Assembly (NCBI GenBank): GCA_025449845.1
Contig: JANWIP010000034.1
Location: 1 to 64,000 of the forward strand
Direction: 5' to 3'
From: Solirubrobacteraceae bacterium
GTDB taxonomy: Bacteria; Actinomycetota; Thermoleophilia; Solirubrobacterales; Solirubrobacteraceae
DNA: 64,000 bases
The notes beneath the pieces were generated by a model, which saw only the letters and a program-made list of their open reading frames with translations, did not search any database and had not been told where the DNA came from. The position numbers were made by a program, and so were the translations under genes. Shown here piece after piece: positions 3,394 to 50,904 of this stretch; the stretch's first letter is position 1, and the number at the start of each line of letters is the position of its first letter.

Positions 3394-4389
3394 CTACACG
3401 GAAACCCTTGCTGGAGGCGCCATCTGACGCTCGGGAAGAGGTGCAATGCGGGGCCGTAGAAGACCCGCGGCACAGGTCGCCCACAGGCAGGCCAGCCAGC
3501 AGCCGCAGGCCAACCCCACGTGCACCCAGACGAGCTGAGTGGGCAGGTGGGTCTCGTACTGGTCGAGGCCCACGGCCCCCTGCAGCGCGATGAGCACGCA
3601 GAGCACGGTCAGCGAGCCGCGCAGCACGGGATCGTTGGAGCGCCGACGCGCAAGCCACCATACTCCCAGCGCCATCAGCCCGAAGGCCAGGCCGATCTCG
3701 CCGTGGCGGTGGATGACGAAGTCCATCGTGCCCTTGCCGTTGAAGTCCAGGCGATTGATGCGCTGCCCAGGCGAGCCCCCGGCGTGGGGGCCGGCGGCGG
3801 TGGCGGCGGTGCCGGCCAGGATCGTGATGCCGCCAAGCACGAGCAGCGCGCGCACGCTCCCCACGAGCAACCGATCGCCGCCCGCCGGGCGCTCATCCGC
3901 CTCATAGGTGGCCCGCCAGGCAAGCGCCGTGGCTGCGGCCAGGATGAGCATGGAAAGCGCGAAGTGGCTCATCACCCAGCCGTAGTCCAGCGCGCCGCGC
4001 ACGGTGAAGCCACCGAGTATCGCCTGGCCCACGACGCCTAGGGGCAGCAGCGCGCCGAGCCAGACGAGATCGCGACGGTAGGGGCGTCGGCGCAGTGCGA
4101 ACACCCAGGCGGCGATCGCGGCGAGCGAGACGGGCACGGTGATCATGCGGTTGGAGAACTCGATCACGGCGTGCGTGGTCAGCGGGGGATAGGCGTGGCC
4201 GTAGCAACGGGGCCAGTCGGGGCAGCCGAGGCCCGAGCCGGTGAGACGTACGGCGGCGCCGCTGAGCACGATCAGCGTGAGCGCGCCCAAGGCGACGTAG
4301 GCCACGAGCGCGTACTGCCGAGGGGTGACGGTGAAGTCGTTGGTGCGCTCACGCAAGCGCTCCAGGCGGGAGGGGGCAGGGATTGGCAT
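3394..4389 (-). CDS. ctaA: Heme A synthase, CtaA/COX15 family
   Basis: This 331-residue membrane protein has about eight hydrophobic segments in two similar four-helix halves. 'LTGSGLGCPDWPRCYG' carries the Cys pair of the first external loop; 'IEFSNRM' and 'HRHGEIGL' are the heme-ligand regions of the two halves, with further His residues in 'MSHFALSM' and 'VWVHVGLA'. The enzyme oxidises heme O to heme A for aa3-type cytochrome oxidase, implying aerobic respiration. The starting ATG follows an AGGGG site. No other cytochrome oxidase genes are in the window. Confidence 0.9.
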   Translation of the reverse strand: MPIPAPSRLERLRERTNDFTVTPRQYALVAYVALGALTLIVLSGAAVRLTGSGLGCPDWPRCYGHAYPPLTTHAVIEFSNRMITVPVSLAAIAAWVFALRRRPYRRDLVWLGALLPLGVVGQAILGGFTVRGALDYGWVMSHFALSMLILAAATALAWRATYEADERPAGGDRLLVGSVRALLVLGGITILAGTAATAAGPHAGGSPGQRINRLDFNGKGTMDFVIHRHGEIGLAFGLMALGVWWLARRRSNDPVLRGSLTVLCVLIALQGAVGLDQYETHLPTQLVWVHVGLACGCWLACLWATCAAGLLRPRIAPLPERQMAPPARVSV

Positions 4390-45570: not shown

Positions 45571-45924
45571 GTGATAGTGAGCGAGTCGTTTGTCGTCGCG
45601 GACTGGACGGACCCAGGCACGCACCCGGGCCGACCGATCGCCGGCTTGCATGTGCACCGCTCCGATGACGAGGCATGGATCGTGCTGGAGGGCCGGCTGG
45701 GGTTTCGCATTGGCGAGGAGGAGCGCGAGGTCATGGCCGGTGAGTCGCTGCTGGTAGAGCGCGGCACGCCGCACTCCTATTGGAACCCCGCGCCGGAGCC
45801 CGCCCACTACCTGCTGGTGATGACCCCGCGAATCCATCAGTTGATCGAGGCACTGCACGCTGGCGACCGCGACGATTTCGCTCAGATCTTTGAGGAGTAC
45901 GACTCCGAGCTGCTCGGCCAATGA
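45571..45924 (+). CDS. Cupin-domain protein
   Basis: This 117-residue single-domain cupin has motif 1 'GLHVHRSDDEAWIVLEG' (HxHx6E-type metal site) and motif 2 'VERGTPHSYWN'. It probably binds a divalent metal and a small ligand. GTG start with TATCGT (45558-45563) 7 nt upstream. The stop overlaps the monooxygenase start by 4 nt, so the two work together or share regulation. Confidence 0.82.
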   Translation: MIVSESFVVADWTDPGTHPGRPIAGLHVHRSDDEAWIVLEGRLGFRIGEEEREVMAGESLLVERGTPHSYWNPAPEPAHYLLVMTPRIHQLIEALHAGDRDDFAQIFEEYDSELLGQ

Positions 45925-47579
45925 GCGCGCCGATGAAGGAGAGCGACTTGAGCGAGGGAACCCCAAGCAAGGGAGCCCCAAGCAAGGGAGCCCCAAGCAA
46001 GGGAGCCCCAAGCAAGGGAGCCCCAAGCAAGGGAGCCCCAAGCGAGGGAGCCCCAAGCGAGGGAGCCCCAAGCGAGGTGGGCGTCCCGAGGCAGGCGAGC
46101 GCCTCGGGCGCGGTGAGGCACGCACGGGTGGCGATTATCGGCTCGGGCCTGTCGGGCCTGGGCACGGCGATCGCGTTGAGCAAGGCGGGAATCCACGACG
46201 TGGTGCTGCTGGAGAAGGAGAGCGCACTGGGGGGAACCTGGCGCGATAACACCTATCCAGGCTGCGCCTGCGACGTGCCGGCGCAGCTGTACTCATTCGC
46301 GTTCGCACCCAAGGCGGATTGGAGTCGCGCCTATGCGGGTCAGGAGGAGATCCGCGCCTATGTGGAGGAGACATCCGCGCGCTTTGGCGTGACCGAGCGG
46401 GTGTGCACCGGCGCCGAGGTGGAAGAGGCACGGTGGAACGATGACGAGCAGCGCTGGGAGCTAAGCACGAGTGCTGGACCGTTCCACGCGCAGGTGCTGG
46501 TATCCGCGACGGGCCCGTGGAACGAACCAGTGATACCGGACCTGCCGGGCGCGGAGCGCTTTGCGGGCGCCATGTTCCATTCGGCACGCTGGGAGCACGA
46601 GCATGATCTGCGCGGCCGGCGCGTGGCGGTGATTGGCACAGGCGCCTCGGCGGTGCAGTTCGTGCCCGAGATCCAGCCGCGGGTGGCGCAGCTGCATGTC
46701 TTCCAGCGCACGGCGCACTGGGTGCTGCCCAAGCCCGACCGCGCGATCTCGGCGCTGGAGAGGAGATTTCTGGGGCGCGTGCCGGCGCTACGCCGCGCGC
46801 TGCGCGCTGCGATGTATTACGCGTTTGAGCTGGTGGGGGTGGGTACGCGCCACGTGGGCGCGATGAGGCAGGTCGAGCGCCTGGGGCGTCTGCATCTGCG
46901 CCGAGCGGTAGCCGATGAGCAGCTGCGCCGCGCGCTGACGCCCAGCTTCACGCTGGGCTGCAAGCGAATGCTGCTCTCAAACGAGTGGTATCCGGCGCTG
47001 GGCGCTGCGAACGTGGAGCTGCTGAATACGGCGGTGAAAGAGATACGCGAGCACTCGGTCGTGGGCGCCGATGGCAGCGAGCGGGAGGTGGACACGATCA
47101 TCTTCGGCACGGGCTTTCGCATGACGGACTTGCCGATTGCGCAGCGCACCTTCGGCCGCGAAGGACGCAGTCTTGCCGAGGTCTGGCGGGGCAGCCCGCG
47201 CGCGTACCTGGGTACGACGGTGGCGGGGTTCCCAAACTTCTTCATGATGCTGGGACCGAACTGCGGCAACGGCCACGGCTCGGCGATCACCTTGATCGAA
47301 GCCCAGGCGCGCTATGTGGTCGATACGGTCCGCGCGATGGGCGAGCAGGGTCTCGGCAGCGTGGAGGTGCGAGCGGACGTGCAGGAGACGTTCAACGAGC
47401 AGGTGCAGCAGGCGCTCACGAGCACGGTGTGGAATGCGGGCGGTTGCAGCAGCTACTACATGGACGCGAACGGGCACAACGCGGCGATCTTCCCGTGGAG
47501 CACGATCGAGTACCGCCGTCGCACGCAGCGCTTTGAGTCGCGCGATTACCGCGTGCGGGCAGCGGTGGAAAAGAACTAG
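45921..47579 (+). CDS. Flavin monooxygenase, Baeyer-Villiger type
   Basis: This 552-residue protein contains a FAD site 'VAIIGSGLSGLGTAIAL', 'GGTWRDNTYPGCACDVPAQLYSF', the class B fingerprint FxGxxxHxxxW ('FAGAMFHSARW', with E rather than P/D after W) and an NADPH site 'VAVIGTGASAVQ'. It would insert oxygen next to a ketone or oxidise heteroatoms. The first ~50 residues are a disordered extension made of eight GAPSK/E pentapeptides before the FAD domain, an unusual addition. Coupled to the cupin gene by ATGA. Confidence 0.88.
   Translation: MSAPMKESDLSEGTPSKGAPSKGAPSKGAPSKGAPSKGAPSEGAPSEGAPSEVGVPRQASASGAVRHARVAIIGSGLSGLGTAIALSKAGIHDVVLLEKESALGGTWRDNTYPGCACDVPAQLYSFAFAPKADWSRAYAGQEEIRAYVEETSARFGVTERVCTGAEVEEARWNDDEQRWELSTSAGPFHAQVLVSATGPWNEPVIPDLPGAERFAGAMFHSARWEHEHDLRGRRVAVIGTGASAVQFVPEIQPRVAQLHVFQRTAHWVLPKPDRAISALERRFLGRVPALRRALRAAMYYAFELVGVGTRHVGAMRQVERLGRLHLRRAVADEQLRRALTPSFTLGCKRMLLSNEWYPALGAANVELLNTAVKEIREHSVVGADGSEREVDTIIFGTGFRMTDLPIAQRTFGREGRSLAEVWRGSPRAYLGTTVAGFPNFFMMLGPNCGNGHGSAITLIEAQARYVVDTVRAMGEQGLGSVEVRADVQETFNEQVQQALTSTVWNAGGCSSYYMDANGHNAAIFPWSTIEYRRRTQRFESRDYRVRAAVEKN
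45956..46075 (+). repeat. 15-bp coding minisatellite in the monooxygenase N-terminus
   Basis: Eight units of GGGAGCCCCAAGCAA (first unit GGGAACC..., last three with GCGA) run without spacer and encode GTPSK once, GAPSK four times and GAPSE three times. The tract lies upstream of the FAD-binding fold, so copy number can vary without harming the enzyme. Confidence 0.95.
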
Positions 47580-47597: not shown

Positions 47598-49130
47598 CTA
47601 GTGGTAAGGGAAGGCGGCCTGGACGGCCTGGACGTCAAGGCCGGTGGAGGCGGCGGGGCCATCGGGTGTGAGCTCGATCTCATAGTGACCGGGCTGTGGC
47701 GGCTGCTCGGGAAGACGGCCGGCGGCGAGCGCGCGCAGCAGCGGTAGCGGTTCGATCTGAAAGGTGACGATGCGGGCCTGCTCGTCGGTGAGGGTCGCGG
47801 CGATGGCCTGCTCAAAGCAGAGCACTTCGGCGAGGTGCGGGACGGCGAGGTCGAGGCTCTGCAGATGCGCGGCGAAGGCTTCGGCTTCAAGCGAGGCATA
47901 CATCTGAGGCGGCGCGGCTGACCAGTAGCTGCGCAAGATGGTCCGGAATGCGTCGGTGCCGAGCGCGAGCATGAGCAGGCGCGATGTCAGGCGTAAGACG
48001 CCCACGATCATGGAGGCGCGAAATTCGTGTATGAGCCCCTCGATGACGCGGACGCCGCGATCCGCGGCCAGCTCCGCCGCACTCTCATCGGAAGGCTTGC
48101 GTCCGATGACGAGCTCGCCGAGAGCGCGCTCCCAGGCGGGCGGCGGAAGCTTGTCGGGCGACTCGACATACGCCAGCCGGACTGGGGGGCTGGGGCTAGG
48201 ACTGCTGCTGCGACTACTACTACTACGAGATGATGGCTGCTCGATCGGCGATGGCAGCGATTCGCGCAGAGCCCAAAGCTGATGCAGGCGTTCGATCTGC
48301 GCACGAACGAGCTCCAGCCCGACGCGAGGGACAAACGAAGGGAAGATCTCGAAGACGATGGCGGCAAGGTTGGGGAGCCGCGGCACGAGCGCCTCGCAGA
48401 TCGCAAAGAGCGGATCGGGAATGGCGCCGGAGTGGGCGTCGAGCCAGAAGCCGTCAAGCTCCATGCCGCCAGCGAGATGGACCTCCCACACCCGCTCAAG
48501 CGGTATTTCATCGAGAAACTGATCGACCGGCTGGCGTCCGTTAAGCGCGTTGGTGAATATGTTGTGCATGTCGAGCAGCAGGCCGCAGTCGGCGCGCTGC
48601 ACCACCTCGGCGACAAAGGCGCCATCGGGCAGCTCGTCAGCGCGCGGACGTAGATAGTTGACTCCTGTCTCGACGGCGACAGGAACGCCGAGTCCCTGCT
48701 GGAGCGTGGCGATCGAGGTAGTGACGGCGGCGATCCCCGCCGCTGTCTGGCGCGGGGGCAGGAAGAAGCCGGTGGCGAACTCCGGCGTCTGGTTGTAGCT
48801 GAGATGGTCGCTCGCCCAAGGTGAGTGGAACCTCTGAATCATGTCGGCGAGCAGTCGCAGCTGCTCGGGGTCGGGCGCAACGGCGCCGCCGACGGGGGTG
48901 CCGACGCTGTGGATCAGCTTGCGACCCGGAAGGCACGAGAGGTGCGCGAGCACATCGTCGCGCACGCGGAAGTGCGGCGGCCCAGCGGGCATCCTGACCC
49001 ACAGCGTCTGAGGCTCGATCTCGACCAGATCGAACAGCTCGGGGCTTGCGTGCAGCAACTCCTCGATGGCCGTGGAATAGGTGATTCCCACCCCGAGCGC
49101 CGCTGGGCCGCCCGCAATGCCGCCGCTCAA
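47598..49130 (-). CDS. DUF692 multinuclear iron oxidase (MNIO) fused to a DUF2063-like domain
   Basis: This 510-residue protein has an N-terminal DUF692 barrel (about 8-285), the fold of MbnB/TglH/BufB peptide-modifying oxidases. The expected metal ligands are present: H74, H109 (SDHLSYN), E154 (VETGVNY), D187 and H189-N190 (LDMHN), H218 (VHLAG), D231/H233 (LDAHSG), E261. A Ser/Pro linker (about 292-318) leads to a helical C-terminal domain (about 320-505) that resembles DUF2063/HvfC partner proteins ('MYASLEAEAFAAHLQSLDLAVPHLAEVLCFEQAI'). In other bacteria these two are separate and act together on Cys-containing RiPP precursors. TTG start at 49130; the exact start is uncertain because of a 30-bp repeat. 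Downstream of the Cys-rich gene in the same operon. Confidence 0.82.
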   Translation of the reverse strand: MSGGIAGGPAALGVGITYSTAIEELLHASPELFDLVEIEPQTLWVRMPAGPPHFRVRDDVLAHLSCLPGRKLIHSVGTPVGGAVAPDPEQLRLLADMIQRFHSPWASDHLSYNQTPEFATGFFLPPRQTAAGIAAVTTSIATLQQGLGVPVAVETGVNYLRPRADELPDGAFVAEVVQRADCGLLLDMHNIFTNALNGRQPVDQFLDEIPLERVWEVHLAGGMELDGFWLDAHSGAIPDPLFAICEALVPRLPNLAAIVFEIFPSFVPRVGLELVRAQIERLHQLWALRESLPSPIEQPSSRSSSSRSSSPSPSPPVRLAYVESPDKLPPPAWERALGELVIGRKPSDESAAELAADRGVRVIEGLIHEFRASMIVGVLRLTSRLLMLALGTDAFRTILRSYWSAAPPQMYASLEAEAFAAHLQSLDLAVPHLAEVLCFEQAIAATLTDEQARIVTFQIEPLPLLRALAAGRLPEQPPQPGHYEIELTPDGPAASTGLDVQAVQAAFPYH

Positions 49131-49166
49131 AACGCTGCCGCCCGCAATGCCGCCGTCCGAAACTCT
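49107..49166 (-). repeat. 30-bp tandem duplication between the Cys-rich and MNIO genes
   Basis: GCCGCCCGCAATGCCGCC starts both 30-bp units (49107-49136 and 49137-49166), which differ at four or so positions. The first unit encodes the MNIO N-terminus, the second is the intergenic spacer, so the MNIO start codon was probably affected by the duplication. Confidence 0.85.
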
Positions 49167-49596
49167 AGACCCCCATCTGCTTGTCGATCGCCTTCTGGCT
49201 GATGGCGATCATTTCGACCTCGTCGCGGAAGACGATGTCAAATCCAGAGCAGCAAGAGGCGCAGCCGACCCGCTCGGCCGCAATGGCGACGGCCTGCTGT
49301 AGGGACTGAATGTCGTGGGTGACGCTCTTGGGCACAAATACGTCGACTCTGTCGCCGAGGGCGAGATTGCCCGCCGACGGTGAGCCGGCACGCGCCTCCT
49401 GGCTCTCACTGACAATGAATTCACTCTCGATATGCACATGCAGAGGGTTGCATCCAGATGCGCACCCAGGGTGACCCATGTTCTCGGCCAGCTCAGCCAG
49501 GGCTCCCTGAATGCTTCCGAGGTCATTTGCCATCTTTGCCGGCAGCCTGAGGCGCACCGGCCTCTCGTGCAGTCGTAGCTTGGCGGATGTGCTCAT
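49165..49596 (-). CDS. Cys-rich duplicated small protein, candidate MNIO substrate
   Basis: This 143-residue protein has two similar halves (about 14-63 and 83-132). Each runs beta strand, helix ('LGSIQGALAELAENMG' / 'DIQSLQQAVAIAAERVG'), a Cys motif (GCASGC 44-49; GCASCC 111-116) and a hydrophobic strand. Five Cys in all. There is no signal peptide or membrane helix. A strong GGAAGGAG ribosome site precedes ATG 49596. It lies directly upstream of the MNIO gene on the same strand, so it is either the peptide the oxidase modifies or a metal-binding partner. I do not recognise a named family. Confidence 0.7.
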   Translation of the reverse strand: MSTSAKLRLHERPVRLRLPAKMANDLGSIQGALAELAENMGHPGCASGCNPLHVHIESEFIVSESQEARAGSPSAGNLALGDRVDVFVPKSVTHDIQSLQQAVAIAAERVGCASCCSGFDIVFRDEVEMIAISQKAIDKQMGV

Positions 49597-49652
49597 CTCA
49601 CTCCTTCCGTAGATGTCCATTCCTCGCAGCAGTTCTGACTATTGCAGAGTTA

Positions 49653-49780
49653 GGCTGGCAAGGCAAGCAATGCCTTTCGCCCAAGGCTGGCAAGGCAAGC
49701 AATGCCTTTCGCCCAAGGCTGGCAAGGCAAGCAATGCCTTTCGCCCAAGGCTGGCAAGGCAAGCAATGCCTTTCGCCCAA
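49653..49780. repeat. Four perfect 32-bp tandem repeats with internal hairpin
   Basis: The unit starts GGCTGGCAAGGCAAGCAATG and ends CCTTTCGCCCAA; copies lie at 49653, 49685, 49717 and 49749 with no spacers. Each can fold AAGGCA-AGCAA-TGCCTT, a 6-bp stem with 5-nt loop. The array sits between the DNA-glycosylase-like gene and the promoter side of the Cys-rich/MNIO operon. It is not a CRISPR array (no spacers). It may terminate transcription or regulate the operon. Confidence 0.95.
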
Positions 49781-49807: not shown

Positions 49808-50845
49808 TCAGGTGGTGAGGTAACGCACAACGTCCTCGCCGTCTGTGGCCAGCGCGGCGCCGTCCTTGCGGGCGATGCGTCCGAAAGGCTCAAGCTGGAC
49901 CGCTCCGCCGGGCATGCTCCAGGTGGCAACCGCGCGGCCCCGCACGAGCGCAAAAGGCCGGAAGAGCCCGTTGACGGTGACAATCGTGCGGTGCGAGCCG
50001 AGGATCGCCTCGCGCGAGCGCCAACCGAGCAGGAGAGGGTCGAAGGCGCCGAGGAGGCGCGGCGGCGGCAGTTCTGCTGCGGGCTTGTGTGTGGGCGCGG
50101 CCCGTGCCGACGCGGCCAGTTCGAGGAGCCCATCGGGGCGCTGGGCAAGCGCAGGTGCGATGGCGCCGAGTCCTGCGCGTACGTCACGCAGCGGCAGTCC
50201 GGACCACTTGGCGAGGTCGCGCTCGTCGGCGGGGGCGTGCCCCCACAGATAGCGGCGAACCAGCTCGGCGAGCGCCCGCTGGCGATCGATGGGCTTGGAG
50301 TCTCCCAGCCAGTCATGCACGAGCACGAAGGCGTGATGAGCGTCGACCATCGGCCCCCGCACGATCAGGCCGCGCAGCGAGGCGAGCATCAAGAGATGCA
50401 CGAGCGCCTGTCCCTCGGTACGCACGCCCGCGGCCGCGATGCGCTCGCGCAGCTGCTGTCGCGTGAGCGGGCCCCGATCGGCCAAAGAGCGCTCGATGAC
50501 CGTCACGGCGCGCTCGGCGGCGGCTGGTGTGACCCCCTCCTGCGTGAGCCTGCGGGCGTTGGCCGTCAACAGGCCGGGTGCTGTCAAAGCATGCAGCCAG
50601 CGATAGTCCTCGCTGCGTACCAGGTGCAGAGTGCCGCGGTTGAGCCAGCTGATGAGCAGCGTGCGCTGCTCGCTGAGCTCGCGGTCGACATCACTCACCG
50701 ATAGTCCGCTGCTGCGTGCGCGGATGGCCAGCCGCGCGCCGCGCGGATCCTGGCCCTGAACAGCCAGCAGCCGCTCGACGACGGCGAGGGGATCGCGGGC
50801 GGGCTCCCCGGCGAGTAGCTGCGCGGTAAGACGCTCGGCGATCAT
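49808..50845 (-). CDS. Winged-helix protein of the HTH_42 / AlkZ-like family
   Basis: This 345-residue protein has three winged-helix-like parts of the HTH_42 family. 'RLLAVQGQDPRGARLAIRAR' matches the QxQ motif near the N-terminus of AlkZ-type DNA glycosylases, which unhook crosslinked bases; here it reads QGQ. 'GTLHLVRSEDYRWLHAL' and 'LLGAFDPLLLGWRSRE' are also typical. ATG 50845 is chosen because TAGCCT (50851-50856) is 5 nt upstream. Glycosylase activity is inferred from family only. Confidence 0.8.
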   Translation of the reverse strand: MIAERLTAQLLAGEPARDPLAVVERLLAVQGQDPRGARLAIRARSSGLSVSDVDRELSEQRTLLISWLNRGTLHLVRSEDYRWLHALTAPGLLTANARRLTQEGVTPAAAERAVTVIERSLADRGPLTRQQLRERIAAAGVRTEGQALVHLLMLASLRGLIVRGPMVDAHHAFVLVHDWLGDSKPIDRQRALAELVRRYLWGHAPADERDLAKWSGLPLRDVRAGLGAIAPALAQRPDGLLELAASARAAPTHKPAAELPPPRLLGAFDPLLLGWRSREAILGSHRTIVTVNGLFRPFALVRGRAVATWSMPGGAVQLEPFGRIARKDGAALATDGEDVVRYLTT

Positions 50846-50904
50846 TGACGAGGCTAGTATGGCGAGCGCTGCTGCCACGGCAATTGCCAGCTAGCCTGTA
50901 GGGG

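Follow-up and report, generated by a model that had tools for sequence, protein, structure and literature searches.

A MNIO fused to a DUF2063-like partner domain and its neighbouring two-copy Cys protein: a putative modification pair in a Solirubrobacteraceae bacterium

The 64,000-nucleotide stretch considered here (positions 1 to 64,000 of contig JANWIP010000034.1 from a Solirubrobacteraceae bacterium, hereafter the window) carries on its minus strand two neighbouring open reading frames (ORFs), the upstream one encoding a Cys protein of 143 residues, P0003 (49165..49596), and the downstream one a MNIO-partner fusion of 510 residues, P0001 (47598..49130), whose TTG start is uncertain. P0003 is the presumed substrate and comprises two copies of a domain with a [C/H]xxCx[S/T]G motif which, according to sequence and alignments, lies at residues 42-49 in copy 1 (H42-P-G-C45-A-S47-G48-C49; 49450..49473, minus strand) and at residues 112-118 in copy 2 (C112-A-S-C115-C116-S117-G118; 49243..49263, minus strand). 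P0001 is made up of a TIM-barrel MNIO domain with nine TglH-type iron ligands (residues about 12-291; 48258..49097), a disordered Ser/Pro-rich linker (about 292-328; 48147..48257) and a region assigned below to a DUF2063-like, PME-type partner domain (about 329-510; 47601..48146), all three on the minus strand. Since both ORFs are conserved in other genomes, neither of them is a chance reading frame. An initial sequence-only reading of the window had put the two proteins forward as a candidate new peptide-modification system, and its identification of a MNIO protein next to a signal-less Cys protein stands.

The oxidase assignment relies on a PF05114 match over residues 14-256 of P0001 (E 7.1e-42), whose 143.9 bits exceed the cut-off of 25 and which is the sole match to this family in the genome. 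A scan of genome contigs with three MNIOs then yielded 72 distinct loci (L numbers below), selected by two peptide patterns of the MNIO, so that MNIOs devoid of these patterns fall outside the sample. In four of them the MNIO is cut off by the contig end, leaving only its start (L087, L089), or is broken over two or more frames (L081, L083). The nine residues that correspond to the TglH iron ligands are identical in all 66 rows of the MNIO alignment A6, which is composed of P0001, P0005, P0006 and 63 loci; outside it stand these four loci, L018 and L072 (the same genes as P0005 and P0006), L026 and L059 (near-copies by eye) and L042 (an open frame in which the script found no start codon), while the rows of L077, L078 and L080 stop short of the partner-domain tail.

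The Ser/Pro linker noticed in the sequence-only reading corresponds to a region of low predicted local distance difference test (pLDDT) scores that is longer in P0001 than in P0005 or P0006. Beyond it, the predicted structure shows helices over residues 330-449, after which come two strands (453-459 and 480-487) and a helix, where a DUF2063-type partner would have an RRE-type fold. In a set of 47 family members picked for diversity (A9), nine yield DUF2063 matches with E values of 1 or lower (best 6.5e-5), and in one Massilia fused copy the match spans positions 2-83 of 83 (E 5.8e-4). Besides, the comparison of the fused partner region with six PME1 proteins by hhalign gave 91% with E 1.1e-6 over 85 columns, and in the Massilia locus L160 an unfused MNIO precedes a stand-alone protein which scores 27.5 bits against the fused-partner profile, where none of 300 shuffles exceeded 5.3. 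Three points speak against the assignment: P0001 itself has no match to PF09836 (DUF2063), the Massilia fused copy scores 22.9 bits, below the cut-off of 27.2, and is the only such fused copy to match in 17 genomes, and the hhalign control against the Cys family (0.1%) is a weak one, not being an unrelated helical domain. Nevertheless, because the weak PF09836 matches in relatives, the profile comparison and the stand-alone Massilia homologue agree, the fused C-terminal region is, on this profile evidence, a DUF2063-like partner domain. The view that oxidase and partner form a single protein is thereby upheld, and the C-terminal domain does not fall into an unrelated fold. The structure comparison of P0001 is uninformative on this domain, as the VIA list was filled by the barrel (residues 10-292) and held no partner-domain row, and a PDB sequence search with the partner domain gave a best E of 0.74, which is not credible.

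As for P0003, its five Cys residues occupy positions 45, 49, 112, 115 and 116. The protein retrieves nothing from Pfam at E up to 1 and two matches only from NCBIfam, at E 0.09 and far under cut-off. No hydrophobic stretch or Sec signal peptide was seen in its N-terminus, MSTSAKLRLHERPVRLRLP, as read from the sequence alone with no predictor, and the protein is probably cytosolic. Its internal duplication, already remarked in the sequence-only reading, is real, the family profile detecting both copies in the genome (E 8.8e-15 and 1.5e-10). By contrast, the GCAS(G/C)C motif said to occur twice turned out to be out of register: family alignments show H42-C45-S47-G48 of copy 1 to be homologous to C112-C115-S117-G118 of copy 2, which makes C45 and C115 the homologous cysteines and [C/H]xxCx[S/T]G the family motif, located inside a domain of ~45 residues present in one or two copies per protein. 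A chance motif is ruled out by the homology of the two copies and the conservation of the pair. That this motif sits inside the domain, twice, and not in a C-terminal target segment after a leader, sets P0003 apart from classical precursors of ribosomally synthesised and post-translationally modified peptides (RiPPs), in agreement with what had been suggested.

Conservation within the motif is uneven. Among 94 domain matches, 69 read CxxCxSG, 16 HxxCx[ST]G and nine deviate. The second motif Cys and the Ser are invariant in the 49 aligned single-copy proteins of alignment A7, which equals the 56 single-copy ORFs minus L020, L024, L033, L059 and the extra copies of L038, L052 and L087; five of these seven ORFs have no second motif Cys, so that it is kept in 51/56 single-copy ORFs overall. 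It is likewise invariant in both copies of the 20 aligned two-copy proteins. Because of this retention in single-copy and two-copy proteins alike, the second motif Cys (C45 and C115 in P0003) would be the likeliest target of the oxidase. One may object that the modification falls on a neighbouring residue instead, namely the conserved Ser/Thr, an Asp or an aromatic one, considering that the motif Ser is as constant as the Cys and that excerpts of PMC12452194, PMC12636437 and PMC13174530 report Asp, Asn, Phe and homocitrulline as MNIO targets; with the Asp after SGx found in just 29 of the 49 A7 rows, we hold this to be improbable.

Two side observations concern the Cys proteins. An LNPQPLPP stretch, for which no paper was found, occurs at the N-termini of those of L053, L068, L071, L078, L080 and L084, and between the copies in L021 and P0004. 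In L028, a tandem pair of single-copy Cys genes (3409-3666 and 3735-3980) precedes one MNIO.

The linkage between the two genes extends over almost the whole sample. A profile built from five repeats located the Cys domain directly upstream of the MNIO in 71 of the 72 loci (94 domains in 75 ORFs), the Cys-gene stop lying -6 to 78 nucleotides from the first matched MNIO residue; the exception is L081, a cyanobacterial metagenome-assembled genome (MAG) with a frame-broken MNIO, where a short, unrelated upstream ORF (3594-3857) has no Cys domain but contains SCPACSSG. In 24 whole genomes picked by their MNIO, all 31 Cys-domain matches are at the MNIO locus. The co-occurrence check that the sequence-only reading had called for was also run from the substrate side: with the Cys profile alone, the domain turned up in 3 of 396 phylum genomes and 7 of 195 from the Massilia family, all ten times beside a MNIO, and no orphan was found in either set, which does not fit a Cys family widespread without MNIO genes. 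Few of these are new cases, since the three phylum genomes (the present one, G122 and G327) were already known, G637 and G638 are among the 24 genomes chosen by MNIO, and others of the seven Massilia positives seem to be among the genomes behind the 72 loci. Besides the Cys protein, no neighbour family recurs in more than 7 of the 72 loci within up to 4 kb, counting genes of 110 residues or more that were grouped by clustering and not all annotated, and the families that do recur come mostly from one genus.

The organisms concerned belong to Pseudomonadota, Bacteroidota, Balneolota, Actinomycetota, Acidobacteriota and Chloroflexota, together with one archaeal MAG, of Nitrososphaerota, and such a spread suggests a common intracellular role. 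Among them are Parasphingopyxis marina (L064), whose Cys protein has a single copy of the domain, and Marivita (L043), with two copies. A first genome-contig scan with P0003 alone found nothing. Plasmid records gave no match for P0004 or the Cys protein of L064, and the 354 of them that match P0001 include none over more than 80% of its length; one scan with a single protein brought no sign of viral carriage.

Close to home, the pair is rare. Within the order, MNIO matches occur in six of 232 genomes, and outside the present genome only the one in G122 is full length (65%, residues 8-510); the Cys protein occurs in 2 of the 201 genomes searched around the present one, itself and G122. In the 396 phylum genomes it is further found in G327, as a 69-residue single-copy protein whose stop codon can overlap a GTG start of the MNIO; a fourth match, in G505, was discarded as due to chance, being on the strand opposite to a longer ORF and interrupted by two stops. 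The absence of the pair from 199 of the 201 genomes could mark it as a remnant under decay that no longer functions in the present genome. This appears very improbable, given that both ORFs are open with all iron ligands kept, that the GC content of the pair (0.652) matches that of the window (0.651), and that G122 has both genes in the same order between different flanks, at 64-65% identity for the MNIO and 36-38% for the Cys protein.

The architecture of the substrate moreover agrees with the enzyme tree. On the MNIO tree, loci with a two-copy Cys protein group almost as a single clade (18 rows from several phyla, with a Shimodaira-Hasegawa-like approximate likelihood ratio support of 96) that holds just one one-copy member, L020, and the copy-number label changes 2 times on the tree compared to 15.3 in shuffles. 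In the same line, Cys-domain and MNIO distances correlate over 63 loci (r 0.58 and 0.56), none of 2000 permutations being as high. This agreement shows that the two genes are inherited together and is no proof of catalysis.

Several known systems can be set against the pair. The closest is adjamnio-IV, for which Antoine et al. 2025 (PMC12452194, Table 2) list 10 proteins, 119-146 residues long, containing 5-6 Cys and a CxxCC and encoded in the order adjamnio-IV - MNIO with no partner gene after. P0003, with its 143 residues, five Cys, CxxCC and same gene order, resembles it by description, and among its 19 two-copy relatives all have 5-6 Cys, 15 have CxxCC and 13 fall within 119-146 residues, with script-chosen starts. 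As P0003 agrees with adjamnio-IV on all the listed points, its substrate class has probably been published already as a putative precursor, this match being one of description; the excerpts of PMC12452194 do not mention the internal repeat, the single-copy relatives, the fused partner domain or the spread. The fusions named there are bufferin chimaeras, DUF2063-RRE and MNIO-nitroreductase, with MovX and its winged helix in the discussion, and a MNIO fused to a DUF2063-like partner appears neither in these fusion passages nor among the open-licence literature matches listed; a literature search by motif strings gave, among the matches listed, only unrelated ones, all via ACCSG. The pair is not an isolated novelty but one member of a wide family.

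Bufferins and captophorins (excerpts of PMC12452194 and PMC12668002) likewise combine a MNIO, a Cys protein and a DUF2063-type partner (PME-type 1). P0003 differs from bufferins in having, on inspection, neither signal peptide nor EGKCG, and P0001 in its fused partner, which has no PF09836 match of its own, and in a score of 120.9 for the BufB equivalog NF050167, far from the cut-off of 310. TglHI, which makes 3-thiaglutamate, shares with P0001 the barrel, the nine iron ligands and the use of a partner protein, but its TglI is a separate protein; in that system TglB appends the substrate Cys to the C-terminal end of TglA, according to an excerpt of PMC10880893. PflD (in the part of PMC12636437 consulted) and MovX (as presented in PMC12452194) are, like P0001, MNIOs fused to a second domain, which is nitroreductase or winged helix and not a DUF2063-like partner.

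In the light of these data, P0003 is very likely the substrate of the adjacent MNIO, and there is a reasonable expectation that the two genes constitute a self-contained modification module in which the MNIO-partner fusion modifies the Cys protein. The upstream gene would provide a small cytosolic protein in which the domain bearing the [C/H]xxCx[S/T]G loop is present twice, and the downstream gene a MNIO with its partner protein built in. In this scheme, the substrate domain might be held by the C-terminal partner domain, and the loop cysteine would be oxidised at the barrel's iron site. If bufferins are a guide, the product may be a Cys-derived thiooxazole or a similar group, a chemistry that we propose only tentatively; for thiooxazoles, excerpts of PMC12668002 and PMC12452194 report a mass loss of about 4 Da and a band near 302-305 nm. 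The modified protein, neither cleaved nor exported, could then bind metal in the cytosol and perhaps buffer copper; this metal role, again by analogy, is somewhat doubtful.

A number of observations weigh against this proposal. In L024 no motif Cys stands beside a MNIO with all nine ligands; in the Massilia locus L033 the second Cys is replaced by Trp, also next to a MNIO with all nine ligands, and the same sequence is found in L129; L076 has Met at the first motif position. Extra copies of the Cys domain without motif Cys occur in L038 (3280-3543), L052 (5495-5713) and L087 (3327-3545), where they adjoin a normal gene in Mucilaginibacter-type loci. Cys-less copies beside intact MNIOs mean either that the target is not always Cys or that some loci are decaying. 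In addition, the agreement of tree and distances would equally result from plain co-inheritance, the AlphaFold2 model of P0003 (pLDDT 49.8) is too poor for a structure search, and recurrent metal, redox or stress genes were not seen around the 72 loci, for which reason the metal role rests on analogy.

Alternatively, the Cys protein could serve the MNIO as a regulatory or metallochaperone subunit, for instance delivering iron via [C/H]xxC, with the true substrate encoded elsewhere. The Cys/His exchange allowed at the first motif position is indeed as in metal sites, and the occurrence of Cys-less copies next to MNIOs with all ligands, as in L024, would suit such a function. Nevertheless, second Cys and Ser are identical throughout A7 (if not in the seven ORFs outside it), the gene orders of Table 2 in PMC12452194 place the putative precursor gene before the MNIO, and the loci offer, among neighbours of 110 residues or more, no other recurrent gene family that could be the substrate, and we consider this explanation rather unlikely. 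If, as we favour, the Cys protein is the substrate, the pair is possibly a very simple complete MNIO system, with one substrate gene and one enzyme gene containing its own partner. Such simplicity would make reconstitution easy and offer a way to learn how a cysteine is brought to the iron site by a partner domain. Routine annotation misses the substrate side, because the 49 single-copy Cys proteins have no close match in Pfam (best E 0.013) or NCBIfam (best E 0.0095). More speculatively, these proteins might represent a cross-phylum class of small cytosolic proteins that receive from a single fused enzyme a permanent, oxidase-made, Cys-derived group within a folded domain, and that are used in place and uncleaved as metal-buffering or redox cofactor proteins, and not as secreted peptides.

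Other arrangements were noticed in Massilia. A precursor-like ORF with GGCNCGLTGFDISF (L160, 967-1413), which may be a candidate adjamnio-1, precedes the unfused MNIO and stand-alone partner mentioned above; homology of the Cys domain to this short precursor is not supported, for they have a TGFDI end in common, yet score 6.8 bits against 7.9 for the best shuffle. In L134 (271-2247) and L135 (559-2238), a MNIO and a full DUF2063-type partner lie in one ORF beside a signal-peptide Cys precursor; we read these operons as bufferin-like and their MNIO-PME1 fusion as a second one, separate from the P0001 type. Several other Massilia MNIOs are in open frames of similar length.

In the window, the pair is flanked by genes for a flavin monooxygenase (45921-47579, plus strand) and an AlkZ-like glycosylase (49808-50878, minus strand), neither of which recalls RiPP genes. 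Directly 5' of the P0003 ATG at 49596, GGAAGGAG can be read from the sequence. Further upstream of this gene, a 32-bp unit occurs in four identical tandem copies (49652-49780), and every copy contains an AAGGCA-agcaa-TGCCTT hairpin; an imperfect 15-bp repeat of 3.5 copies (49107-49159) spans the uncertain MNIO start in the region separating the two genes. Finally, a KGAPS-type tail at the N-terminus of the flavin monooxygenase is encoded by a 15-bp repeat, present 8.5 times at 45951-46077.
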